Numbered from the stretch's first letter, positions 11,127 to 58,828 are shown. The stretch: DNA of 64,000 nucleotides from Fibrobacter succinogenes (GCA_902756345.1 CACVQR010000010.1:124001-188000), one strand, 5' to 3'. Made by a program: numbers and translations. The notes: a model not told the origin generated them from the sequence alone.

Positions 11127-11203
11127 TGCGCCCACCCTTTCCTTGGCCGACGCTCTTTTATGGTTGGCCTAGTGATTTCCTACTTACTTGTCTTCCAGTA
11201 CCC

Positions 11204-11520
11204 TCTCGCCTAGGTAGTTCCACCCCCTAAAACCCCTGGCTTTAATCTGCCTACCGCTGCCCACGGCTCCAGAAATGAGCCGTGTGGAATGAATTGCTCA
11301 CTGTCTTGCCGCACTTGATGCGGCACCTCCTTTCCCCGCCCGCGTCATGCCGGTGGAAATCGGCATCAGCTTTTCATGTCCAAAAAAAGCGCTCCGGCTC
11401 AGCCTGCTCCGCACGCAGACAAATTACGGCCTTCGGCCTTTACTGTCCGCTTAGCGGCCAGGCATTCGCCGCCGCTTTCCCCAAAGCCCTGTTTTTTTGT
11501 TAAACTTTTTGATGATTAAT
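11204..11520. repeat. Conserved 3' flank of FISUMP locus 1 (no gene)
   Basis: The gap 11011-11526 has no credible gene. It holds four blocks that recur, in the same order and near-identical, behind the second FISUMP gene (29623-29913). Block a is CTCGCCTA...CCCCCTAAAACCCC (11204-11236). Block b is 11389-11416, 27 of 28 bases identical and containing CGGCTCAGCCTGCTCCGC. Block c is 11449-11479, containing GCGGCCAGGCATTCGCC. Block d is the AT-rich 11497-11520 beside the FISUMP stop. Sequences between blocks differ. Nothing here is a recognisable insertion-sequence end. Confidence 0.8.
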
Positions 11521-11526
11521 TAAGGA

Positions 11527-12750
11527 TTAGTAATCCTGTACACAGCGGACTGAAAGACCGTAGACTTTTTTTTGTCCCGCACCACGAGTGAGATAATCTC
11601 TTGCAACAATGGCAACCAAACCCAATATACCATCATTTTCATCACTCTCGTATTCACCGGGTAACCAATGATAAGCATATTTCTCCAACTCCTCATACAT
11701 AACAAGGCTTTCAGAACTATACGGCATCTGTGATAGTAATTTTCCTGCCGGCAAAAGGGAAAATCCTCGCTGATTGGACCCCCACAAAACTGCACCCAAA
11801 TACGAAGCACCATCTCTGGAGCCGCTACCAATCAACACCATGGCCCATTCTTCTCGGTTCATCACGTGCCAACCATCCGGACATATACCCTGATGCATAA
11901 CAAAACTGAGCCTGTCTTGATACTCGGGGAAAGGATTACTCATTAAATCGTACTCTACTGGACATTTGGCGCTACCTATGGCAAAACTGTCACAAGCCGC
12001 AGGAAAGTTCATCACCGTGGCCCAAGTATAAAGGCCGCCGAAGCCGTTCTCGCAATACCAGGGGTCATCATCGTAGCAGAACTTGGTAGAATCCGTCATC
12101 TGAGTGCCACCTGGAATCATCTTGCCATAGTTCAAGTTTTGAGCAAAGAACGTTAAGGAGTCTATCATTTTATATCCCACCTCATAGCGAATCGTCTTAT
12201 ACACCTGACCGTCACGGGGGTCCGTAAATTCCCCGTAGCTGTAGTCATTCTCGCTTACAAAAAGACGGCTCATGTCGTAATACTTGCTACTACTCGATGA
12301 ACTAACCGTGGAGCTAGAAGACTGAAGTACCCAATGACCATTTATACAACGGTATGTAATACCATATTGCGAGATATATTTTGTTCCACCTTCATAATCA
12401 CTCGAGCAAAGTGAGTCTCGCAATACATAGCCACTGGAACTTGAACGAGTATTATCTACACTCGACGAAGAGTTTCCCTCACCGTTAGAACTACTGGAGC
12501 CGTTCGTTTTACCGCTAGAACTAGAACTCTTCTGCGAATCATCTCCAGGCTTTACAGAGCTAGAAGACCTCGAACTGAGCGCAACAGAAGACGAAGAACC
12601 GTCGGCCGGGTCCGGCGCTGGAGCGGAGCTACCAGACTCATCGCCACACGCAATGAAAATACACGCAAAGACAAGCGCAAATACTAACAGACCAAAAATG
12701 GATTGCTTCGCCCTTACAGGGCTCGCTATGACGTTTGTAAAAATCTTCAC
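11527..12750 (-). CDS. FISUMP-domain lipoprotein 1 (Fibrobacter major paralogous domain)
   Basis: Predicted outer-membrane or surface lipoprotein of 407 aa with one FISUMP domain (TIGR02145 type), a large Fibrobacter paralogous family of unknown function. The start is GTG at 12750, directly behind GGAGGT; an in-frame TTG at 12783 lacks such a site. Residues 1-34 form a signal peptide ending ACIFIA with Cys35 followed by GDES. A Ser/Asp/Gly linker (about 40-110) leads to the domain with LNYGKMIPGG, WYCENGFGGLYTW and CPDGWHVMNREEW. The n-region VIASPVRAKQS is encoded by a dispersed palindromic repeat. It lies 110 bp downstream of a broken transposase-like gene and is followed by a conserved 3' flank. 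Confidence 0.92.
   Translation of the reverse strand: MKIFTNVIASPVRAKQSIFGLLVFALVFACIFIACGDESGSSAPAPDPADGSSSSVALSSRSSSSVKPGDDSQKSSSSSGKTNGSSSSNGEGNSSSSVDNTRSSSSGYVLRDSLCSSDYEGGTKYISQYGITYRCINGHWVLQSSSSTVSSSSSSKYYDMSRLFVSENDYSYGEFTDPRDGQVYKTIRYEVGYKMIDSLTFFAQNLNYGKMIPGGTQMTDSTKFCYDDDPWYCENGFGGLYTWATVMNFPAACDSFAIGSAKCPVEYDLMSNPFPEYQDRLSFVMHQGICPDGWHVMNREEWAMVLIGSGSRDGASYLGAVLWGSNQRGFSLLPAGKLLSQMPYSSESLVMYEELEKYAYHWLPGEYESDENDGILGLVAIVARDYLTRGAGQKKVYGLSVRCVQDY
12700..12732 (-). repeat. VIAS-type dispersed palindromic repeat inside the FISUMP1 signal peptide
   Basis: On the minus strand the stretch encoding VIASPVRAKQS has the form GTCATAGCGAGCCCT-GTA-AGGGCGAAGCAATCC. That is the well-known bacterial dispersed repeat pattern TCATTGCGAGC...GCGAAGCAATCC that usually lies between genes. 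Here it is in frame and supplies the positively charged n-region of the signal peptide. The other FISUMP gene has a different sequence at this place. Confidence 0.65.
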
Positions 12751-12810
12751 AGGACCTCCAGTAACCTCAATCGTTTTTGCCAAATTTAGTTAAATGTCGC
12801 AGGAATTGAA

Positions 12811-12845
12811 AAAGCCGACCCCATGGATCGGCTTTAGATTTTTTA
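12811..12845 (-). terminator. Intrinsic terminator after the transposase-like pseudogene
   Basis: Arms AAAGCCGA (12811-12818) and TCGGCTTT (12828-12835). On the minus strand the hairpin is followed by TTTTTCAATT, between the pseudogene stop (12861) and the FISUMP1 start (12750). On the plus strand the T-run TTTTTTA (12839-12845) also follows, so it can work in both directions. Confidence 0.75.
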
Positions 12846-12860
12846 ACCTAGCATAAAATG

Positions 12861-13851
12861 CTATTTCAAGGCTAGCATTGCCGCAATCACGCTATCCGGC
12901 ACGTTCTGCGAACGCAAGTAGTCGGCCCGTTTGGTGTCGCGAGCTGCATTGTCAGCATCGTTCTTTTCGCGCTCCTGTTCCGCGCCCTTCAGGAAGGCTT
13001 CGGCTTCGAGAGCTTCGTATTCATGACGGTCGAACATGTTTGCCTCCAGTGCTTTCAAAAGTTCAGGGTTCATGCGGCTTACGCGCAGGCGGTGTTTCGG
13101 GAACCTGGAGCGGTCCTCTCGAAATGAGCCGGAGCCAGAAATCTTCGCGGGTTTTCACGCCCTTGCGCAACTGCAAAAAGTTGGGCAGGTCTACTACAAT
13201 ATACCTATTTTTTCGCGAAATGGGAAGGGCGTTCCCCGACTTGACTTCGTATTCGCTATAGGTGGACCATACGTCCTTATAGATTTCCTTCGACCGGAGT
13301 ACCGGATTGTTGCAAAGCCAAATGGATACCGTTTCCGGAAGCTCGTAGTAACGGTACTTGCGTTCCTCTTCCGGCAGGCCCAGGAAATAGTCAGAACGGT
13401 TAAACTCGTACTTGCCGCGCAGTGTGAGGTACGAATTGTAGAGTTGCATACGGTCGAAAAAGAACGAATGCACCTTATTCTGCATTTGACGCTTTCAGCG
13501 TCCGCTGCTTCGCCTCAGTTATAAAAACAAACTAGTTTGTTTTTGCAACATTCGGCTCGCACGCTTTCCGATATTCAAGTAGCGGTTATCTCTGGTATGC
13601 ACCCAGACATCAAGGCGCGCGGGGTCGTTTTCGGGCATAAAGATGTCAATGGGTTTCTCGAATTCATATTCGAGGTCGACAATTTCATGGTCGCGGTCCA
13701 GCTGGAGCAGGCTGTTGAGTACGTCGCGGATTGTGTCCTTGTCGTCCATAAGGATGCGGAAGGTCGCCGCGTATTTGGGCAGCAGGAATTCTTCGCCTTG
13801 TTCGTTTGTGACGATGTAATTTTTTGTTGAATGATTGGTATTGTCAGACAT
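12861..13851 (-). pseudogene. PD-(D/E)XK nuclease family transposase-like gene, broken
   Basis: Three pieces of one protein in order on the minus strand. Residues from ATG 13851 (MSDNTNHSTKNYIV, then RILMDDKDTIRDVLNSLL and RLDVWVHTRDNRYLNI) match the N-terminus of the PDDEXK_2 transposase-like family. From 13485 the middle part continues (MQNKVHSFFFDRMQLYNSYL, YYELPETVSIWL). From about 13115 the C-terminal helical tail (MNPELLKALEANMFDRHEYE ... DSVIAAMLALK) is in another frame. The reading is interrupted at 13489-13565 by an inserted palindromic element that brings stops, and by a frameshift near 13110-13130. The family is linked to recombination and degenerate mobile elements. It lies directly upstream of FISUMP1. 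Confidence 0.85.
13488..13569. repeat. Palindromic mini-element interrupting the transposase-like gene
   Basis: Between the codons for RYLNI and MQNK lies about 75 bp of extra DNA. It contains a perfect 22-bp palindrome (13523-13544, AAAAACAAACT/AGTTTGTTTTT) and a small inverted repeat (13488-13502, GACGCT-ttc-AGCGTC). ACGCTTTC occurs at both ends (13489-13496 and about 13560-13567), possibly a target duplication. Flanking words CGCTGCTTCGCC and ACATTCGGCTCG recall, in inverted form, the flanks of the elements near 54.1 kb. Confidence 0.65.
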
Positions 13852-16427: not shown

Positions 16428-16550
16428 AATTCTGAATTCAGAGTTCAGAATTCAGAGTTATTATAAATCTAACGCCAACTAATATAATTGCGGCGTAGCC
16501 GCCTAGCTAAACAATCCGAAATCCGAAATCCGAATTCCGAATTCCGATTT
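16428..16550. repeat. Heptad repeat array around a GCGGC hairpin (AATTCAG / CCGAATT words)
   Basis: From the base after the stop codon: AATTCTG, AATTCAG, AGTTCAG, AATTCAG (16428-16455). Then comes a spacer, the hairpin GCGGC-gta-GCCGC (16490-16502), and the opposite-facing units CCGAAAT, CCGAAAT, CCGAATT, CCGAATT, CCGATTT (16516-16550). This lies in the convergent gap between the thioredoxin-like gene and PBP1A, ending three bases before the PBP1A stop. Confidence 0.87.
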
Positions 16551-16552
16551 AA

Positions 16553-18865
16553 TTAGAACATCTTGCGCGTGTTCTTCTTGGCGGGGCCATTACCGCTGCT
16601 GCTCGGCTTGGGGGCTGTACTTGCACCCTTGTTGCTGAAGAGCGTTGCGTCGTCGGCAGACTTGGTCTTGACTTCGAAATGGTTACCGTCGCAGACTTCG
16701 GTCGGAGCGTAGCCCGCCGTGTACAGGCAGTAGGTCTTTTCGGAGCAGAATTCGCCGGCAATCTTACCCGTATGGTTGCAAATGCCCTTGCTCACCACAC
16801 CGCTCGGAACCGGGAACGGCTTACGCGGCAAGTCCTTGTGCAATTGCTTCATGGTCGCAATCCATACCGGCAAGGCGTCTTCGGTACCTGTGTGGCCAGC
16901 ACCTAAAGTACCCGGGCTGTCGGAGCCGACCCACACGCCCATCGTATATTGCTTGGTAAAGCCAATGTACCAGCAGTCGGTATAGTCGTTGGTGGTACCG
17001 GTCTTACCGCCACTCGGGTGCGTAAATCCGTTCGCCCACACGCGGGCGGCCGTACCGCGGATGTTCACGTCCTTGAGCATGTCGACCATCAAGTAGGCCG
17101 AAGCCGGGCGCAACACTTCGTGTTCGACCTTGGAATTCTTTTCGATGACTTCGCCGTTGCGGTCCACAATGGATTCGATCATGTAAGGTTCGATTCGATT
17201 GCCGCCGTTGGGGAACACGGTATAGGCAGACGTCATTTCCATAAGCGTTGCTCCCACGGACCCCAGGGCAAGGCTAGGTACCGCCATCAGCGGGGCACGC
17301 ACAATGCCGAACTTGCGGGCGTAGTTCACCACGTTGTTCAGGCCGTATTTCATACCTGTCAAAATAGCCGGCAAGTTCTTGGACTTGTAAAGGGCACGGC
17401 GGAGCGTCATCATGCCTTCGAAGTCATGTTCGAAGTTCGCCGGGCGCCAGACCTTGTTCTTGTCCTTGTCGTCCGGGTCGGGAATGCTCACCGGCTGGTC
17501 GTTCACCGAGTCGCAGGGGCTTGCGCCGTTGTCCATGGCCGTCGAATACACAATCGGCTTGAACGACGAGCCGGGCTGACGCAGGGACTGCACCGCACGG
17601 TTCCAGCGGGACTGGTTAAAGTCGGAACCGCCCACCATGGCGCGTATTGCACCCGATTCGTTCTCGATCAAGATAGCCGCAATTTCAGGATGGTGATAAA
17701 GGATAGAATCCGGGAAGCGGCGCTTGTCGGCAGGGCGCTTCAAGTCGTCGGCCAGGTATTCCTTCTTAAAGAGCGTGTAGACGCTATCGAAGTGAGCGAC
17801 CACGCTATCTTCGGGCATGTTATACTTTTTAGTCAGGTACAGGCGGCGGGTAGCGCGGTACTTGACGCGGCGGCGGACCTTTTCGACCTGTACACGGGCA
17901 ACGCTATCGGCGAATGCCTGAATGTCCGGGTCAATCGTCGAGTTGATCGAGACGCCGTCGGCATACAGAGAATTTTCGCCGTACTTCTTTTCCATGTACT
18001 TGCGGATTTCTTCGTAGAAGTACAGACCCGATTCGTTCGAAGTTTCCTTTTCGGCAAGCGTAATCGGGGTCTTGATATATTCGTGGTATTCGTCGTCGTT
18101 AATGTAGCCGGCATCGCGCATGGCATAAAGCACCGTATTGCGACGTTCAAACGCAGCTTCGGGGTGACGGTCCGGGCGGTAAGCTTCCGGGCGCTGCAGC
18201 ATACCGGCCAAAACGGCAAGTTCCGGAATCGTAAGGCTATCGAGCGGACGGCCGAAGTAGAACTTACCTGCCGCCTGGAAACCGTAGTTACCGCCAGCCA
18301 GGTACACTTCGTTCATGTAGAATTCAAGGATTTCTTCTTTAGTATAAGTCTGTTCGATGCGGATAGCCGTCATCATTTCCTTGATCTTACGCGAAATCGT
18401 ACGTTCCGGCGTGAGGAACAGGAGCTTAGTCAGCTGCTGGGTCAAGGTAGATGCACCACGGAGTTTTTTGCCCGACAAGGCGCTTTCCATAACGGCAGAC
18501 GGAATTGCCCACACGTTCATGCCCCAGTGGCTATAGAAGGCTCGGTCTTCGGTGGCCATCACGGCGTGGATCGCATTTTCGGGAATCGAGTCGAAGCTCG
18601 TCCATTCGCGGCGTTCCACGAAATATTCGTGGGCAATCTTTCCGTTCATGTCGTAAATGTTCGTGACAAGTCTCGGATTGATCTGCTCGAGCTGCGAAAG
18701 CGAAGGCAGTTCCGGCGAAAAGTGATTGTAGACCGCAAGCACGGCGATAAAGGCCGCAAGCACGGGTACCGCAAAAATGATCAGCCACTTGACCACCCTG
18801 CGGTCAGTAAACCAGCCCTTCAAAATATTCAGAACCGAAAGTAATACGGGTTTGACTTTATCCAT
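16553..18865 (-). CDS. mrcA: Bifunctional penicillin-binding protein 1A (class A PBP)
   Basis: Peptidoglycan glycosyltransferase and DD-transpeptidase, 770 aa, inner membrane with a periplasmic body. One TM helix is at about 24-47. The GT51 domain has ATEDRAFYSHWG (catalytic Glu near residue 107), LRGASTLTQQL and the ILEFYMNEVYLAGGNYGF block. The transpeptidase domain has the SxxK serine in RQPGSSFKP (near 433), an SxN-type motif, and KTG in GGKTGTTNDYTD (near 619). The C-terminus is a Ser/Pro/Lys-rich tail ending NTRKMF. Monocistronic. The PBP1A/1B/1C distinction is from overall motifs; PBP1A fits best. Confidence 0.95.
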   Translation of the reverse strand: MDKVKPVLLSVLNILKGWFTDRRVVKWLIIFAVPVLAAFIAVLAVYNHFSPELPSLSQLEQINPRLVTNIYDMNGKIAHEYFVERREWTSFDSIPENAIHAVMATEDRAFYSHWGMNVWAIPSAVMESALSGKKLRGASTLTQQLTKLLFLTPERTISRKIKEMMTAIRIEQTYTKEEILEFYMNEVYLAGGNYGFQAAGKFYFGRPLDSLTIPELAVLAGMLQRPEAYRPDRHPEAAFERRNTVLYAMRDAGYINDDEYHEYIKTPITLAEKETSNESGLYFYEEIRKYMEKKYGENSLYADGVSINSTIDPDIQAFADSVARVQVEKVRRRVKYRATRRLYLTKKYNMPEDSVVAHFDSVYTLFKKEYLADDLKRPADKRRFPDSILYHHPEIAAILIENESGAIRAMVGGSDFNQSRWNRAVQSLRQPGSSFKPIVYSTAMDNGASPCDSVNDQPVSIPDPDDKDKNKVWRPANFEHDFEGMMTLRRALYKSKNLPAILTGMKYGLNNVVNYARKFGIVRAPLMAVPSLALGSVGATLMEMTSAYTVFPNGGNRIEPYMIESIVDRNGEVIEKNSKVEHEVLRPASAYLMVDMLKDVNIRGTAARVWANGFTHPSGGKTGTTNDYTDCWYIGFTKQYTMGVWVGSDSPGTLGAGHTGTEDALPVWIATMKQLHKDLPRKPFPVPSGVVSKGICNHTGKIAGEFCSEKTYCLYTAGYAPTEVCDGNHFEVKTKSADDATLFSNKGASTAPKPSSSGNGPAKKNTRKMF

Positions 18866-26907: not shown

Positions 26908-26973
26908 AATTCGGAATTCGGATTTCGGAATTTTTATCAGCTAACAACTCCTAATTCATAATTCCGAATTCTG
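26908..26973. repeat. Heptad repeat array (AATTCGG / AATTCCG words)
   Basis: AATTCGG, AATTCGG, ATTTCGG, AATTTTT (26908-26935), a 17-bp spacer, then AATTCAT, AATTCCG, AATTCTG (26953-26973), the inverted sense. It sits between yebC and the stop of the next minus-strand gene, reaching the last codon of that gene. No GCGGC hairpin. Confidence 0.82.
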
Positions 26974-26976
26974 AAT

Positions 26977-27789
26977 TTACTTGTTCTTGAGTTGGCAACG
27001 GCGCTTTTCCTTGACGCTAAGACTCGGATCGTCGCATTCATCGCCTGAAACTTTTTTCTTTTTCTTCTTCTTGGTCGGAGCAGTTTCTTCGTCAGCAGCA
27101 TCAACGCGGCGCTTGCGCTTGTTCATCGTTGATTCTTCTTCGGCTTCGACTTTTTTTTTCTTTTTTTTCTTCGGAGCAGCTTCTTCTTCGCTAGCTTCTA
27201 CACGGCGCTTGCGAGTGGTAATGGTAGCCTCTTCCTCGGGCTTCTTTTCAGCCTTTTTCTGCAGAGTGCGGAGTTTAGCCTTGTCGAGCGGGTCGGCGGA
27301 GGCCCTGGTAATGGCCTTGTCATACTTACCGCCCCACACGTTACCAAGAAGCGAACCGGATTCCAGAGCATCCTTCAAAATGCCCATGGCCCATTCGTCA
27401 TTTGCCGGCGGCAAAAGCTTAAAGCGCAGGTTACGGATTCGGGTCGGTTCGTCTTCAAAGTAGAGCATCATGTCAAAGAAGCCCACCTGATATTCCTTGT
27501 TGTCGGAGCCAACGGCTGTAGACGGAACATAGGCAAGCATCGCATAGACATCGCCATCGAAAAGGCCCGTGATCAAGGCATCGCCGTCACCGCCCGGGGC
27601 CTGCACTTCACCGTCAGCCTGGAAAGCCCACGGAGCGACATCCACCGTCAAGCGGAACTTGTGATAACCCTTATCGGCCTTTTTCAGCTTGAGCAGCGCA
27701 CCCGAAAAAGCCTGGAACTCAGGCTCCAGCGTCTGCGCCGAACAAACCGCAGCAAAAACCAAACAAAGCAACACTATAAGTTTTTTCAT
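26977..27789 (-). CDS. Exported protein of unknown function with Lys-rich tandem repeats
   Basis: 270 aa; not recognised as a known family. Signal peptide 1-18 (MKKLIVLLCLVFAAVCSA). Residues 20-175 form a globular part (YHKFRLTVDVAPWAFQADG, NLRFKLLPPANDEW). The C-terminal 90 residues hold about two and a half copies of a unit of roughly 30 residues: a basic RKRRV, an acidic EEE-type run, then seven or eight lysines. The end has a small Cys pair (DECDDPS...RRCQL). GGAGG precedes the ATG. The Lys runs come from long A-rich codon tracts that could slip. It may bind polyanions such as nucleic acid, teichoic-like or acidic polysaccharide material; this is inference only. Confidence 0.75.
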   Translation of the reverse strand: MKKLIVLLCLVFAAVCSAQTLEPEFQAFSGALLKLKKADKGYHKFRLTVDVAPWAFQADGEVQAPGGDGDALITGLFDGDVYAMLAYVPSTAVGSDNKEYQVGFFDMMLYFEDEPTRIRNLRFKLLPPANDEWAMGILKDALESGSLLGNVWGGKYDKAITRASADPLDKAKLRTLQKKAEKKPEEEATITTRKRRVEASEEEAAPKKKKKKKVEAEEESTMNKRKRRVDAADEETAPTKKKKKKKVSGDECDDPSLSVKEKRRCQLKNK

Positions 27790-29427: not shown

Positions 29428-29558
29428 AAGGGTTCCTGTATTTGAAATTTTTGCAGAGAAAAGATAGAAAAAGTTGGCAAAACTCAGGATTTTAAACCCA
29501 TAGAATGGGGGAAGAATCCCCCTACTTGCAGCCGCTTTGTCCGCGTGTCCTGCTGATT

Positions 29559-29586
29559 GTCATCCCGGGCTTGACCCGGGATCTCC
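29559..29586. repeat. Dispersed palindrome of the VIPG type (ATCCCGGG / CCCGGGAT)
   Basis: GTCATCCCGGGC-TTGA-CCCGGGATCTCC with 8-bp arms 29562-29569 and 29575-29582. This is the common intergenic repeat pattern whose accidental translation reads CHPGLDPGS. It lies in the gap between the phosphohexomutase and the FISUMP2 3' flank; an open frame at 29537-29986 is only its by-product. Confidence 0.75.
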
Positions 29587-29622
29587 TTTTCTACTCGCGT
29601 CCAAAACGTCTTTCTGCACCCC

Positions 29623-29913
29623 CTCGCCTAAGGGGCTCCGCCCCCTAAAACCCCCGACTTCTCTTCTCTCATCCCTGAAAAACAGCGTTCCGGCTCAGCC
29701 TGCTCCGCACGCTCACATGGCCGTTCCGGAATGTTCGCTTTGCGGCCAGTCATTCGCCGTCGCTTTAGCGCAAACGCGGTTCAAGGCTCTCGATTTTATA
29801 GTTGTTAACACGTTTCTTGGAATTTTTCATAGATTTCTTATTTTTAGACATAGGTTCTCCTTAGGGCATGCCCCTCACGCCCTAATTTTATTGTTAAAAT
29901 TTTTGGTGATTAA
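29623..29913. repeat. Conserved 3' flank of FISUMP locus 2
   Basis: Same four blocks and order as at 11204-11520: a 29623-29654, b 29685-29712, c 29736-29766, d 29891-29913. Blocks b and c are nearly identical to locus 1. Between c and d this copy has a 28-codon frame with a LEPR motif that locus 1 lacks. The rest of the gap 29428-29917 holds the VIPG palindrome and no gene. Confidence 0.8.
29765..29851 (-). pseudogene. Truncated start of a LEPR-motif surface protein (28 codons)
   Basis: ATG at 29851 with AAGGAG seven bases upstream. The frame is 28 codons, very rich in Lys/Asn at first (MSKNKKSMKNSKKRV), then YKIESLEPRLR and a stop. Y/F-x-(I/L)-E-x-LEPR-x is the N-terminal signature of the LEPR-XLL domain that opens giant bacterial surface proteins. 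The frame is cut two residues after LEPR, exactly where conserved block c of the FISUMP 3' flank begins. This suggests a deletion or cassette insertion removed the rest. A functional micropeptide is possible but less likely. Confidence 0.6.
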
Positions 29914-29917
29914 ATTA

Positions 29918-31165
29918 CTAGTGAGTCAAGGTGTTGTTAGCATCCATCACACAACGGACTGGCTCAAACATATTTTTTCCACCTGAATTTCCATCAGAGT
30001 CTAAAGATTGCGAAACAGATGAAAAAAAGATGTTCTTTGCATTCTTTTGATTCAACTCAGTAGGCATCCAATAATTAACAAATTCATGGATTCCGGAAAA
30101 ATCCTTCCCTCTAACCCATTCTCCAGTTGGAATAATCGCCATACCAGAACTATTTGAACCAGCATTTTTTTCCCATACAGCCTTAGAACGGAGACTACTA
30201 GAATTTTTTTTAGTATGCGCCCATTCATACTGATTCATAACGTGCCAGCCGTCCGGGCAAATTCCTTGCCAACGGACTACACGAGGATCGCTAACGCTCT
30301 TAACCGCATCGGCAAAACTCTTGCAAGCGCTATTGCTATCCACAGCAACAGAATCACAGACCTTGGGCAAATTCATAGCCTCGGCCCAAGTGTAAAGACC
30401 GCCAAAGTGATTGTCGCAGAACCATTCATCGTCTACGTAGCACAATTTTTCTGTCACTTTGTCGTCAAATTTCGTTGTTCCACCCAATACCATTTTACCG
30501 TAATTCAAGTTTTCGGCCATCACATAGAAGGTATCCCTACCCTTACCATCCTCGGAACGCCAAATAAACTCAACATACTTGTACTTGTGACTATCTCGAG
30601 GGTCTTCAAACTCTAGATATTCCCCGCTGTAGCCAGCAAAAAGGCTATCTAAATTGGGGTGTTCCTTATTTTTTTTGATTGCAGCGAGAGAATCTCGAAT
30701 GTAGGAACTAATTATCGAATCTGTGTCCCAACGTCCATTTCTGCATGTTGCAAAAACTAAGTCTCCTCTGTCAAATATAGCGGTATCCCCCTCATCACAA
30801 ATATAGAATACGAATTCGCTACTACTCGACTCAACCACAGACGAGCTACTATTCTTGCCGCTTACGGAACTAGAGGACTTCTTTTCTGTTACAGAAGAAC
30901 TGGATTTTTTAGAATCTTTCTGAGAAGACGAAGATGCGTCTTTATCTTTACCCGAAGAACCGTTGTTGTCATCGCTACTCGACGAGATTTCACCGATTGG
31001 ATCGGGAGCGGAGCTACTAGATTCATCGCCACATGCAACGAGCAGGGCTAGGAGAACGGACAGAGCCAATAACATGCGAAGCGAATGCCGCGGCAGGCTG
31101 CTTGCAGACTGACATGGCTGAGCTGATGCTGTTATGCGCTTGCGCAAAACGTTAAAAATCTTCAC
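29918..31165 (-). CDS. FISUMP-domain lipoprotein 2
   Basis: 415-aa paralogue of the lipoprotein at 11.5 kb. The start is GTG at 31165 (VKIFNVL), five bases behind GGAGGT, in the same context as locus 1. Signal peptide with an unusually long n-region (1-30), hydrophobic core, lipobox LVAC with Cys45, then GDES. Ser-rich linker with Lys/Asp (about 50-125). FISUMP domain: YLEFEDPRDSHKYKYV, ENLNYGKMVLGG, WFCDNHFGGLYTWAEAMN, CPDGWHVMNQYEW, PVRCVMD at the end. Surface-exposed location is inferred from the lipobox. It lies 102 bp downstream of an Rpn-type gene and upstream of a conserved 3' flank. Confidence 0.92.
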   Translation of the reverse strand: MKIFNVLRKRITASAQPCQSASSLPRHSLRMLLALSVLLALLVACGDESSSSAPDPIGEISSSSDDNNGSSGKDKDASSSSQKDSKKSSSSVTEKKSSSSVSGKNSSSSVVESSSSEFVFYICDEGDTAIFDRGDLVFATCRNGRWDTDSIISSYIRDSLAAIKKNKEHPNLDSLFAGYSGEYLEFEDPRDSHKYKYVEFIWRSEDGKGRDTFYVMAENLNYGKMVLGGTTKFDDKVTEKLCYVDDEWFCDNHFGGLYTWAEAMNLPKVCDSVAVDSNSACKSFADAVKSVSDPRVVRWQGICPDGWHVMNQYEWAHTKKNSSSLRSKAVWEKNAGSNSSGMAIIPTGEWVRGKDFSGIHEFVNYWMPTELNQKNAKNIFFSSVSQSLDSDGNSGGKNMFEPVRCVMDANNTLTH

Positions 31166-31206
31166 AGAAGACCTCCGGTTATAAAAATCCCACTGATTTT
31201 TTGCAA

Positions 31207-31236
31207 AATATAGCAACTAAAAAGCCAGCCTTACAA
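31207..31236 (-). promoter_or_regulatory. Possible promoter of FISUMP2
   Basis: On the minus strand TTGTAA (31236-31231), an 18-bp spacer, TATATT (31212-31207), about 40 bp before the GTG. The -35 overlaps the right part of the terminator of the upstream gene, so the lipoprotein can be expressed on its own. Confidence 0.45.
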
Positions 31237-31245
31237 GCTGGCTTT
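31221..31245 (-). terminator. Intrinsic terminator of the Rpn-type gene
   Basis: Arms AAAGCCAGC (31221-31229) and GCTGGCTTT (31237-31245), a seven-base loop, and TTTTTAG on the minus strand. Same placement as the terminator at 12811-12845 in locus 1. Confidence 0.8.
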
Positions 31246-31267
31246 CGTTCTAGAAAAAACAACTAAA

Positions 31268-32212
31268 CTATTTTGCAAGACGACTTTGCTGAAGTGCTTC
31301 GAGCTTTGATTGAATTTTCGCAATCATTTCGTCGGAAAGCCCTTCTTCACGAAGAACGGCCTCGGTGTCAGCTTTATTTTGCGCAAGTTTGTCTTTAGCT
31401 TCTTGAGTTTCAGCACGCGCATCCGCAAGGCGTTTGCGGAACACATCGCCGGCGCTCACAAAGCCGTATTTCTGTCCTACACTCTTGAAAGCCATTTCCA
31501 ACTCCTTCAGATAGTCTTCATCGACGTACTCTCTCAAATATACATTAATTTTGCTCAAAAGGGTCAATCCTACATCCGCAGGCAATTTCTGGAACGATTC
31601 CTTAAACTGCAACAACTTCGTGCGCAAGTTTTCACTATCAAACGCATATTTCATTGACATGATTCCCATGCCCGTCGCAACGTCTTCACAAGCGAGACAA
31701 TCACTGTCGGGGATGTCGGCCATGTTCACGAACGAGCATGCAAACGGAAGCACGCGACCGTGGAAAAATTCCGGGTACCCGTCTTCAAGGTTCTTCAGAG
31801 GATTCCAATTTTCGCGCCCGTTGTAAAAGATAATGGCCATAGTCGGAAGCCCGTCAAACACACGATTTTCCTGATGAATCTTCATCACGGAACGCACATA
31901 GCGGGCAATCTGGTTGATAGTGTCGGGATCTCGCCCCGACTTGTGCTCCACCATGATGCCAACCAGCACCGGTGCGCCCGACAACACATTGACACGGAAA
32001 GCAAGATCCGCATCACCGGTTTCATCGACCTCGGAATACGAATCAGGAATACGTTCCAATGTGCCGAGATTCACGGATGACAGGAATTCGCCCACTTCGC
32101 GGTCCACCTTGCCAGCAAACCCAAGCAACAGCCTAAGGCGCTTGACATCGGCAAAAAGCCACCGGAAAAAGGGATCATGTGCACGGCGTGCATTATTTTT
32201 CTTTTCAGTCAT
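31268..32212 (-). CDS. Rpn/YhgA-like PD-(D/E)XK nuclease, putative transposase
   Basis: 314 aa, intact. The N-terminus HDPFFRWLFADVKRLRLLL, then DADLAFRV and GIMVEHKSGRDPDTINQIARYV, matches the Rpn (recombination-promoting nuclease, formerly Transposase_31) family. Asp in DLAFRV, Glu-x-Lys in VEHKS and the following Gln/Arg form the PD-(D/E)XK core. The C-terminal 80 residues are a coiled-coil-like charged stretch ending with a small helical module (LREEGLSDEMIAKIQSKLEAL) that resembles the tail of the broken gene at 12.9 kb. AAAGGA precedes the ATG. Rpn proteins promote RecA-independent recombination in E. coli. FISUMP2 follows on the same strand. Confidence 0.88.
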   Translation of the reverse strand: MTEKKNNARRAHDPFFRWLFADVKRLRLLLGFAGKVDREVGEFLSSVNLGTLERIPDSYSEVDETGDADLAFRVNVLSGAPVLVGIMVEHKSGRDPDTINQIARYVRSVMKIHQENRVFDGLPTMAIIFYNGRENWNPLKNLEDGYPEFFHGRVLPFACSFVNMADIPDSDCLACEDVATGMGIMSMKYAFDSENLRTKLLQFKESFQKLPADVGLTLLSKINVYLREYVDEDYLKELEMAFKSVGQKYGFVSAGDVFRKRLADARAETQEAKDKLAQNKADTEAVLREEGLSDEMIAKIQSKLEALQQSRLAK

Positions 32213-32382
32213 AGTTTTCCTTTCTTTAGCGTTTTTTTTGGACCCCCATTTTTTTCGGAAGGCTCCTTTACTCTATACGCCACTTTTGAAGAAGCAGTCT
32301 GATTTTGCACCTGGTTTTCACGTAAAATTATATTAGCGGCATTTGGGGCTACTTATGCAAAAAGGCATAATCTTGACGACAA

Positions 32383-32417
32383 TTTACTGCTTACTGTCTA
32401 CTGCTTACCTCCTACTT
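32383..32417. repeat. Heptad array (CTTACTG word) upstream of dapA
   Basis: TTTACTG, CTTACTG, TCTACTG, CTTACCT, CCTACTT in strict 7-bp phase. It ends four bases before the probable -10 box (TATATT, 32422-32427) of dapA, so it fills the -35 region. No inverted arm. Confidence 0.75.
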
Positions 32418-32436
32418 TAAGTATATTTTAGTCACT

Positions 32437-43498: not shown

Positions 43499-43566
43499 AG
43501 TTCAGAATTCGGAATTCAGATTTCAGAATGGACTCAAGATTTCCGAACTCCGAACTCTGAAATCCG
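43499..43566. repeat. Heptad repeat array (AATTCAG / AACTCCG words)
   Basis: AGTTCAG, AATTCGG, AATTCAG, ATTTCAG (43499-43526), a 12-bp spacer, then ATTTCCG, AACTCCG, AACTCTG, AAATCCG (43539-43566) in inverted sense. It begins two bases after the stop of the cNMP-fold gene and runs to the putative -10 box (TATATT, 43574-43579) of yajC. Confidence 0.85.
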
Positions 43567-43618
43567 AATTTTTCTATATTTACCCCGTAAATCAATTCAC
43601 CCCCTAGCAGGTATAAAC

Positions 43619-43999: not shown

Positions 44000-44539
44000 A
44001 TGGCTCTGCTCGAAATTAGAACATACGGCGACCCGGTACTTCGCAAAAAGTGCGAGCCCATCACCGAGATTACGCCCGAACTGCGTCAGCTCGCCAAAGA
44101 CATGCTCGAAACCATGTACGACGCTCCGGGTTGCGGCCTTGCCGCTCCGCAAATCGGCAAGAACATCCGCTTGGTCGTGATTGACACCGCTATTCCTGGC
44201 GAAGAGGACCCGCGCCCTTACATCATGTTCAACCCCGAATGGGAACCTGAACCCGATGCAAAGCCGGTGCCTTACGACGAGGGCTGTCTTTCTGTGCCGG
44301 ATATTTTCTGCAACGTGATTCGTCCCGACAAAGTGTGCGTACGCTTTTTCGACATCAATGGCGAACCTCAGGAACTGCATGATTGCGACGGGCTCTTTGG
44401 CCGCTGCATTCAGCACGAAACGGACCATCTGAACGGCGACCTGTTCGTAGACAAGATTTCGACTGCTGACCGCACCATGAACCAGTCTAAACTGCGCAAA
44501 ATGGCTAAGGACACGCAGGCGAAGTTGAAGAAACATTAA
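44000..44539 (+). CDS. def: Peptide deformylase
   Basis: Fe2+ (or Zn2+) hydrolase removing the N-formyl group from new proteins. 179 aa. Motif 1 GCGLAAPQIG (51-60), motif 2 EGCLSVP with the metal Cys, motif 3 QHETDHLNG with both metal His and the catalytic Glu. Between motifs 1 and 2 there is a slightly longer insert (EEDPRPYIMF) as in type 1 enzymes of Gram-negatives. Three bases after yajC. A heptad array starts at the stop codon. Confidence 0.97.
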   Translation: MALLEIRTYGDPVLRKKCEPITEITPELRQLAKDMLETMYDAPGCGLAAPQIGKNIRLVVIDTAIPGEEDPRPYIMFNPEWEPEPDAKPVPYDEGCLSVPDIFCNVIRPDKVCVRFFDINGEPQELHDCDGLFGRCIQHETDHLNGDLFVDKISTADRTMNQSKLRKMAKDTQAKLKKH

Positions 44540-44565
44540 TTCTGAATTCGGAGTTCGGATTTCGG
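44538..44565. repeat. Short heptad array (AATTCGG word) at the def stop codon
   Basis: AATTCTG, AATTCGG, AGTTCGG, ATTTCGG in phase. The first unit includes the last two bases of the def TAA. No inverted partner, no hairpin. Confidence 0.75.
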
Positions 44566-44608
44566 AATCATTCTTCAGTAGTCAAGTCGAATGTTCAAAA
44601 GGGAAAAA

Positions 44609-57736: not shown

Positions 57737-58828
57737 TTGGTCGAAGGAACTCCCGACGGCAAGTTTCTCCGAGAGCGTTTCCAAAAGTTCTTCTGCGACA
57801 TTTTCTTTTTTACCCTTAGCAAACGACCAAGAATTGGCCCCCAACCACGGGGGGACGATGTGTTCTGGGAATACAAGATGATTCAGAATAATGTTGGGCA
57901 ATGCGAAAAATTTTGTCTTGATAAACAAGCGACCTAAACAATAAGTCAACAAGTCGGGCTTGGTACAAACCGTAAAGGGAACTCCCGACAAAGCAAGTTC
58001 CAAGGTCGATGTTCCGGGGGCGGTCAATGCATATTCCGCACTTTGATACAGAGCCTTTCGCTCTGCGGCACTTTGGGGAGCGACAACCACAGGAATCTTA
58101 TACTTCTTAAAAACATCCACCAGTTCTTGGCGCGCTGCCACCACCACTACATTTTTAAGCCCCTGCACCGCTTTCAAATAAATAGGCAAGTTGCGGAGCG
58201 CCTGCGCCTTTCGACTCCCGGGCAACAGCAAACAACGTGGATTAGGAACCGCTTCGGTCTCCGCAATTCCATGCGACGCCTTATTTCTCTCTAAATGCAA
58301 CTCCGAATTCCGAATTCCGAGTTCCGAATTTGCAAACGGGTGTTGAACGCGAACCACATTACAGCCGGCTTCGCGGTACACCGATTCCTCAAAATCAAAA
58401 AATACGGCGAGCTTGACATACGGATTTTTCGCAAGCACCTTCGCACGCTTGCGTTTCCAGGCCCACACTTGTGGAGGCGCCACATACAAAGCCGGCTTGC
58501 GGAGTTCCCCCGCCAGAGCCACGAGTTTCATGTTAAAGCCCGGATAATCAACAGCAATCAGCCCGAGACATTCCGGCGATTCAAGCGCCGTCTTTAGTGC
58601 AATAAAACTCTGACGCAATTTAAAGTACTTGGGCAATACATCGCCAAAGCCAGAAACCGGCAAGTTTTCGAAGTCGACCAAGGGCAACATTCCCGCCGCC
58701 TGCATGCGGCGGCCGCCTGAACCTTTCACGGTAAAATTTTTTGAAACTAGACTCTTGACTAAGGGTTCGCCAACGGAATCCCCGGAGTCTTCGCCCGCGC
58801 AAATCAGAATGTACGGCTCGCACGCCAT
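57689..58828 (-). CDS. lpxB: Lipid-A-disaccharide synthase
   Basis: GT19 glycosyltransferase joining UDP-diacylglucosamine and lipid X, inner-membrane surface. 379 aa. ILICAGEDSGDSVGEPLV, MQAAGM, VDYPGFNMKLV, YVAPPQVWAW and LLPGSRKAQ are diagnostic; the APGTSTLELALSGVP loop follows. The stretch between AGCNVVRVQHPF and the LLPGSRK block carries NSELGIRNSEL, encoded by a heptad repeat array inserted in frame at 58299-58333. It starts six bases after the dnaE stop and is probably cotranscribed. It overlaps mutL by 48 bases tail to tail. Shows that the organism makes lipid A. Confidence 0.94.
   Translation of the reverse strand: MACEPYILICAGEDSGDSVGEPLVKSLVSKNFTVKGSGGRRMQAAGMLPLVDFENLPVSGFGDVLPKYFKLRQSFIALKTALESPECLGLIAVDYPGFNMKLVALAGELRKPALYVAPPQVWAWKRKRAKVLAKNPYVKLAVFFDFEESVYREAGCNVVRVQHPFANSELGIRNSELHLERNKASHGIAETEAVPNPRCLLLPGSRKAQALRNLPIYLKAVQGLKNVVVVAARQELVDVFKKYKIPVVVAPQSAAERKALYQSAEYALTAPGTSTLELALSGVPFTVCTKPDLLTYCLGRLFIKTKFFALPNIILNHLVFPEHIVPPWLGANSWSFAKGKKENVAEELLETLSEKLAVGSSFDQLALEFLGQFVERKAQ
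58299..58333. repeat. Heptad array inside lpxB, in frame
   Basis: Plus-strand units AACTCCG, AATTCCG, AATTCCG, AGTTCCG, AATTTGC (35 bp). On the coding strand it adds about 11 residues (NSELGIRNSEL). It uses the same AATTCCG word as the intergenic arrays at 16.5, 26.9, 43.5 and 44.5 kb. Confidence 0.85.

Follow-up and report, generated by a model that had tools for sequence, protein, structure and literature searches.

The window analysed here, 64,000 nt of Fibrobacter succinogenes DNA (G000:C10:124001-188000), contains two FISUMP lipoprotein genes, each preceded by a gene of the PD-(D/E)XK nuclease type. G000 denotes the window's genome, a 3.36-Mb draft of 27 contigs. The two loci raise the question of what moves, and what stays, when FISUMP genes diversify. 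The first-pass annotation had proposed that nuclease and FISUMP gene spread together. Comparison with related genomes, in particular with the sister species G005, which was compared site by site, suggests a different answer. What moves is the coding body of the FISUMP gene, sometimes together with the start of a LEPR open reading frame (ORF), and not Rpn and FISUMP as a pair. Homologous recombination or gene conversion probably shuffles these bodies among the fixed sites, and the Rpn and other toxin-antitoxin (TA) modules would be residents of these sites.

The FISUMP gene of locus 1 lies at 11527..12750 (minus strand, 407 aa), and that of locus 2 at 29918..31165 (minus strand, 415 aa). Both have a GTG start. 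In profile searches, both exceed the curated cut-offs of TIGR02145 (41.65 bits) and PF09603 (33.9 bits): the TIGR02145 scores are 89.9 bits (E 3.1e-25) and 72.2 bits (E 8e-20), and the PF09603 scores are 60.8 and 50.9 bits, respectively. By inspection, both proteins have lipobox signal peptides (...LLALLVACGDESSSS and ...FIACGDES). No fold was assigned to the FISUMP domain, because the AlphaFold model of the locus 2 domain (31 homologs) reached a pLDDT of just 66, and neither Foldseek nor VIA-align matched it to a PDB structure; PDB sequences searched with a profile also gave no match. The nuclease genes lie upstream on the same strand, with 113 nt (locus 1) and 105 nt (locus 2) between nuclease stop and FISUMP start, and the common layout described earlier was confirmed in genes, orientation, and spacing.

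PF09603 matches were found at 115 places in G000. Thirteen G000 loci, here called cassettes, form a FISUMP subfamily with the near-invariant start GGAGGTCTTCTGTGAAGATTTTT, and all 13 have a ribosome-binding site (RBS) and a start codon in this context. The start pattern was searched with up to three mismatches alongside a control pattern. There were 11 matches in G000 (nine of them without any mismatch), 15 in G005, 3 in G003, and one each in G009 and G010. No match was found in the remaining 16 genomes searched, and the control gave 0. At locus 2, the 23-nt context lies at 31154..31176 on the minus strand (G000:C10:155154-155176). The G000 loci that escape the pattern, locus 1 and C1:186018 (contig positions without a genome label refer to G000), both bear start variants. 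At locus 1, the variant is GGAGGT..TGTGAAGATTTTT (12739..12760, minus strand), and its form GGAGGTCCTGTG lacks 2 nt relative to the family start. The start context reported as conserved is near-invariant across the subfamily, with locus 1 departing from it.

Fixed sites and swapped bodies

Syntenic FISUMP sites were identified in other species: pgm-dapA, bamA, lpxD, M6 peptidase, BrnA-type TA, C1:186018, smr, C6:250507, C6:5649, and C3:6324. At the eight sites shared by G000 and G005, the flanking DNA is 82-97% identical. The FISUMP domains of the same eight pairs share 25.8-39.0% aa identity (mean 32.6%), whereas pairs from different sites share 38.2% on average. The same-site pair was the best match at none of the eight sites. 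Three G000 bodies have close counterparts elsewhere in G005. The body of C8:110428 corresponds to that of the G005 LEPR-giant locus (98.7% aa identity, and 97.5% DNA identity over 1,238 nt); this move is probably recent, because the DNA identity exceeds the level of the flanking genes. The body of window locus 2 corresponds to that at a topoisomerase-gene site (G005 C2:282.7k). Its 97.0% aa identity at 88% DNA identity suggests an old move under purifying selection. The body of C6:5649 corresponds to that at the G005 lpxD site (94.9% aa identity). Only these 3 of the 13 G000 bodies have a partner of at least 94% among the G005 loci, and the process is therefore a turnover rather than a simple permutation of copies.

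The non-cassette FISUMP gene C10:76363 (beside C10:74496) is inherited vertically with its flanks at about 90% DNA identity, and is the sole vertical control. A tandem cluster of six FISUMP genes (C4:133500-147500, L046) is missing from the same site in three relatives, where the left flank is 94% conserved. It could not be used as a second control because it is not conserved at its site.

At shared sites, the 5' breakpoints mostly lie within the genes. In 10 of the 12 same-site comparisons, the upstream similarity enters the gene, and the first similarity block ends at +20, +59, +59, +234, +95, +77, +21, +236, +212, and +83 nt. The similarity resumes beyond the 3' flank. The smr site is an exception, as further similar blocks (83-91%) follow and the bodies are 71% identical. 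The relocated bodies start at -37, +279, +513, -11, and +45, and end 57, 4, 7, 33, and 37 nt past the stop codon. As in families shaped by gene conversion, the same site carries different variable regions, the same region is found at other sites, and the ends are conserved.

In this picture, each site keeps its flanking genes, its RBS and start, and the first part of the code for the signal peptide and serine linker. The remainder of the gene, which comprises the FISUMP domain and the greater part of the linker, is replaced by bodies that come from other sites or from other lineages of Fibrobacter. The presumed and most likely enzymology of this replacement is homologous recombination of the RecA type, or gene conversion. 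The 5' homology arm would consist of the conserved start together with the repetitive code of the serine linker. The conserved C-terminal codons and the untranslated tail, plus a hairpin and LEPR codons where present, would serve as the 3' arm. Rpn and other TA-type modules would collect in these intergenic sites and remain there. The FISUMP copies look expressed, and presumably all of them are; the selective advantage may be variation in surface-protein binding.

Several points weigh against this reading. Few genomes were compared, and the recombination is inferred from sequences. The 3' homology between different bodies is short just past the stop codon. The genome is a draft, in which four contig ends with FISUMP genes fall within such repeats. 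The bodies could also have come from outside by transfer, instead of from within the genome. Moreover, the absence of the C4:136-147k cluster from its site in three relatives indicates that the turnover extends beyond the cassette subfamily. In the literature searched, no report was found of fixed-site FISUMP loci with swapped bodies, and no paper naming both "FISUMP" and "Fibrobacter"; LEPR-XLL was mentioned just in passing, in two papers.

The 3' flank and the LEPR ORFs

The two loci had also been described as sharing their 3' flank. Two blocks are indeed shared, 11190-11242 with 29608-29660 (79%) and 11382-11421 with 29678-29717 (90%), but the flanks differ as a whole. Locus 1 has only a mosaic of REP-like repeats (11190..11500, minus strand), and the LEPR ORF is absent. 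Locus 2 has a hairpin (29861..29885, minus strand; 10-bp stem, fold -15.1 kcal/mol, z -3.3), a LEPR-motif mini-ORF of 28 codons (MSKNKKSMKNSKKRVNNYKIESLEPRLR and a stop; 29765..29851, minus strand), and REP-like repeat blocks (29600..29764, minus strand). The hairpin is found at the same place in twelve leaders, and the stem sequences of the 11 others differ from that of locus 2. The GGCTCAGCCTGCTCCGCACGC block, with up to three mismatches, has 11 matches in the genome (control 0). Seven of these lie directly 3' of cassette genes, and an eighth, at the end of contig C19, joins a cassette by synteny, which bears out the downstream enrichment suggested earlier. A stricter pattern for the GGGGTTTTAGGGG block gave 7 matches, 4 of them 3' of cassettes. 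REP-like repeats also occur without FISUMP, for example at the pgm-dapA site of G003. The 3' blocks are thus enriched beside cassettes, yet they are dispersed repeats and not one unit.

The LEPR ORFs are closely paired with FISUMP. Of the eight NF012209 (LEPR-XLL; cut-off 17 bits) matches in G000, seven immediately follow a FISUMP gene on its 3' side, and the remaining one is at a contig start. Among the 17 LEPR loci of the relatives, 15 are directly preceded by a FISUMP gene, and for the other two the upstream DNA is less than 190 nt long. LEPR ORFs were found behind FISUMP genes in seven genomes. The copy at C10:74496 scores 21.1 bits. The 28-aa ORF of the window has no NF012209 match, because it ends one residue past LEPRL. 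In G005, G009, and G010, the LEPR ORF forms the N-terminal part of a giant protein, with an open frame that runs for about 4,500-5,050 codons. The G005 giant, read to its end, has 4,975 aa and, by eye, RTX-like repeats near the C-terminus. It stands in a row (G005:C1:144474-169000; L156/L157/L136) of a FISUMP gene, the giant, an M50-peptidase-like membrane protein, and a SecA-like ATPase, which is possibly a dedicated export operon for LEPR giants.

Elsewhere the LEPR ORF is mostly a mini-ORF that stops shortly behind the motif. The free-standing minis have 28-31 aa, and no description of such ORFs was found in the literature. Between the mini-ORFs of locus 2 and C6:76685, which share their 3' junction, there are 8 synonymous and 0 nonsynonymous changes in 27 codons. 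C10:74496 and G005 L138 also share their 3' junction, and their mini-ORFs show 11 synonymous changes and 1 nonsynonymous change. The synonymous excess indicates purifying selection on the LEPR peptide; selection acting on the giants, with later recombination back onto the minis, could contribute to this excess. A long ORF (L194) and a mini (L191) share 78 identical nt of the LEPR N-terminus and are unrelated beyond. The reverse was seen for L163 and L173, with N-termini at 64% and the next 60 nt at 93%. The LEPR codons thus appear to mark recombination junctions, a second joint besides the breakpoints described above. It is tempting, but rather doubtful, to regard FISUMP and the LEPR peptide as a dedicated two-gene surface module, in which the microproteins of 28-31 aa are functional lipoprotein partners and the LEPR codons are a crossover point swapping FISUMP variants between giant RTX-like proteins and minis. 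If this were true, Fibrobacter would rebuild its surface repertoire combinatorially.

Repeat-derived sequence is also found inside the signal-peptide code. At locus 1, an in-frame insert (TNVIASPVRAKQSI, 12695-12747) lies right behind the start codon. At locus 2, an in-frame insert (NVLRKRITASAQPCQSASSLPRHSLRM; 31075..31152, ends approximate, minus strand) lies between VKIF and the hydrophobic part; it is common to four G000 loci, and the G005 ortholog is without it. These inserts recall the palindromic elements that lie within genes of Rickettsia. Repeats of the AATTCGGAATTCGGA type, at least some of them intergenic, are dispersed in the window at 16428-16553, 26908-26980, 43499-43573, 44538-44572, and 58299-58333, and are unrelated to the FISUMP loci.

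The upstream slot and the rival explanations

The PD-(D/E)XK gene of locus 1 (PDDEXK_2-like, Rpn-type; 12861..13851, minus strand) is dead, as noted before. Its pieces are the ORFs 13575-13851 and 13063-13485, with a repeat of about 90 nt between them, and the remainder follows in another frame. The repeat (13486..13575, no strand assigned) is REP-like by eye, of the type present in the 3' flanks of C8:110428 and C6:250507. A C-terminal ORF of 70 aa, resembling an RpnS tail, is intact (12861..13073, minus strand); a similar separate tail ORF lies behind an Rpn gene in G005 (L145). With 16.2 bits, below the PF12784 cut-off of 27.4, and a broken frame, the gene is not counted as a member of that family. 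The Rpn gene of locus 2 (YhgA-like; 31268..32212, minus strand; 314 aa) is intact and carries VEHKSG (E-x-K nuclease motif). Its score of 44.9 bits (E 1.3e-11; cut-off 21) makes it a member of PF04754 (Transposase_31/Rpn), and its G005 ortholog at the same site is 94% identical. The weak PF12784 match against PF04754 supports the earlier statement that the two nucleases are of different subfamilies.

Seven Rpn-type loci were found in G000. Five sit 92-113 nt upstream of a cassette FISUMP gene in the same orientation, and the other two adjoin non-cassette FISUMP genes in divergent orientation. About 0.03 would be expected in the slot at random (7 x 13/2,900, the gene number of 2,900 being our estimate). 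The upstream enrichment predicted by the first-pass annotation is therefore real; these figures, like those for the 3' blocks, are based on genome searches and on loci read individually. Rpn is upstream of 5 of the 13 G000 cassettes. In other cassettes, the slot holds DUF4258 and a BrnA antitoxin, or a Gp49 gene (HigB-type). In G005 and G003, RhuM, Gp49 with HTH, BrnT, and PDDEXK_2 were also found, some on the opposite strand or farther off. Since Rpn proteins are reported as toxin-antitoxin and anti-phage systems (PMC10327210), the slot can be described as one for TA-type modules in general. Among the FISUMP loci of named Fibrobacter metagenome-assembled genomes (MAGs), Rpn lies within 350 nt upstream in 2 of the 8 with a LEPR ORF versus 1 of the 72 others. 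When the 29 highest-ranking Rpn loci from relatives were compared, a strong FISUMP match was present in the flanks covered for only 5; the association therefore concerns the cassette unit, not Rpn in general. In G007 (L169, L172), the Rpn genes follow the LEPR ORF on its 3' side instead of preceding FISUMP.

The pgm-dapA gap of locus 2 (window 29428-32436) is an intergenic hotspot, the contents of which vary in nearly every Fibrobacter species compared. In G007, G009, and G010, the gap is short and contains none of these genes. G001 and G004 have Rpn there but no FISUMP, with or without further ORFs, whereas G003 and G008 have other ORFs. Rpn is accompanied by FISUMP in G000 and G005, where the Rpn genes are 94% identical and the FISUMP bodies differ. 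Rpn and FISUMP therefore come and go separately. No terminal repeat of an insertion sequence or transposon was recognised by eye between occupied and empty pgm-dapA sites, and the ends and contents are variable. There is a fair likelihood that Rpn, TA, and anti-phage modules simply land in tolerant intergenic hotspots also used by FISUMP, and that their co-location is functionally meaningless. The variable gap, the diverse slot contents, and the reported TA and anti-phage nature of Rpn agree with this. The 92-113-nt spacing and common orientation at five loci, however, are more ordered than independent landings would be.

The replaced bodies might also result from birth and death, that is, tandem duplication at each site and differential loss, without gene conversion. 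Tandem FISUMP arrays do exist (C5:1-4.4k; C4:136-147k; G003 L167). However, the site-specific 5' end runs unbroken into the replaced gene in ten comparisons, which requires a crossover inside the gene, and near-identical bodies are present at other sites. This explanation is unlikely. Even less probable is a site-specific recombinase that swaps cassettes at the near-palindromic start (GTCTTC-TGT-GAAGAT) and the LEPR codons. The extreme conservation of the 23-nt start and the exact joints at the LEPR codons would fit, but the 5' breakpoints are spread over 200-500 nt. No recombinase gene was found beside the units in the loci read, and none was sought genome-wide.

The proposal that Rpn and FISUMP form one spreading unit, the nuclease aiding insertion at new places, was rejected as very improbable, since Rpn keeps to its site while the FISUMP body changes. 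In its favour are the five Rpn loci directly upstream of cassettes, the occurrence of Rpn close to the FISUMP-LEPR units of G003, G005, G007, and two MAGs, and the report that overexpression of RpnA-D raises RecA-independent recombination (PMC5350276). However, at three shared sites Rpn is kept at 94%, 82%, and 99% DNA identity beside a replaced FISUMP body. Bodies are also swapped at sites without any Rpn; 8 of the 13 G000 cassettes lack Rpn, and TA genes substitute for it. In G007, Rpn is 3' of the unit. Comparative work found rpn genes without terminal repeats or autonomous mobility (PMC10327210). What stands of the original proposal is the enrichment of Rpn and of the 3' blocks beside cassettes, and the turnover of the lipoprotein repertoire. 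An assembly artefact is scarcely credible: contigs do end in cassettes (C8, C19, C20, C23, C5) in this draft, and short-read contigs might be misjoined inside repeats, but all eight sites differ, G003 and G010 at lpxD differ from both G000 and G005, most bodies have no near-identical partner, so that no permutation repairs the mismatch, and the assembler evidently breaks contigs instead of joining them.

Comparison with known systems

The FISUMP family is a hallmark of Fibrobacter. Swapping of bodies at fixed sites would provide a concrete mechanism for its diversification, which is testable by strain comparison. Through the pairing with LEPR, an orphan family of lipoproteins becomes connected to giant surface proteins of the LEPR/RTX-like kind, and the conserved LEPR mini-genes are likely missed by gene callers. 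The Neisseria opa and Helicobacter outer-membrane-protein families are dispersed surface-protein loci with conserved ends, in which variable parts are exchanged by recombination. The dispersed FISUMP loci are similar in their conserved ends and swapped variable parts; unlike those families, they encode lipoproteins of a rumen/gut commensal and can have a LEPR mini-gene behind them. A phase switch by repeat tracts was neither noticed at these loci nor looked for.

In the Borrelia vls system (PMC11499132), a lipoprotein variable region is likewise replaced segmentally from related copies, but there is a single expression site, and the silent cassettes are contiguous and about 90% identical. Each FISUMP copy examined, by contrast, has its own RBS and start, and the copies are dispersed and mostly 30-80% identical. 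An archive of silent promoterless donors, of the vls or pilin type, is not supported, as all 13 loci have an RBS and a start codon. One survey found 17-119 FISUMP copies per genome among Fibrobacteres genomes carrying the family, and suggested roles in attachment or as a cohesin analogue (PMC4704652). The Fib_succ_major domain is also a target of diversity-generating retroelements, where the same domain is used as a variable ligand-binding module (PMC4159848). The 97% aa and 88% DNA identity of window locus 2 and its G005 counterpart (L137) reflects conservation and not targeted mutation.

The nucleases resemble the Rpn/YhgA-like proteins (PMC5350276, PMC10327210), with PF04754 at locus 2 and a C-terminal tail ORF at locus 1 that recalls RpnS (PMC10327210); unlike Rpn nucleases elsewhere, those of this clade seem to be located by preference beside FISUMP units. 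The LEPR ORFs share with the LEPR-XLL domain (NF012209) a K/N-rich N-terminus and the LEPRLMM motif, and they continue as giants behind FISUMP in three genomes. They differ from it in their free-standing form, in which the ORF ends right past the motif and is under purifying selection.

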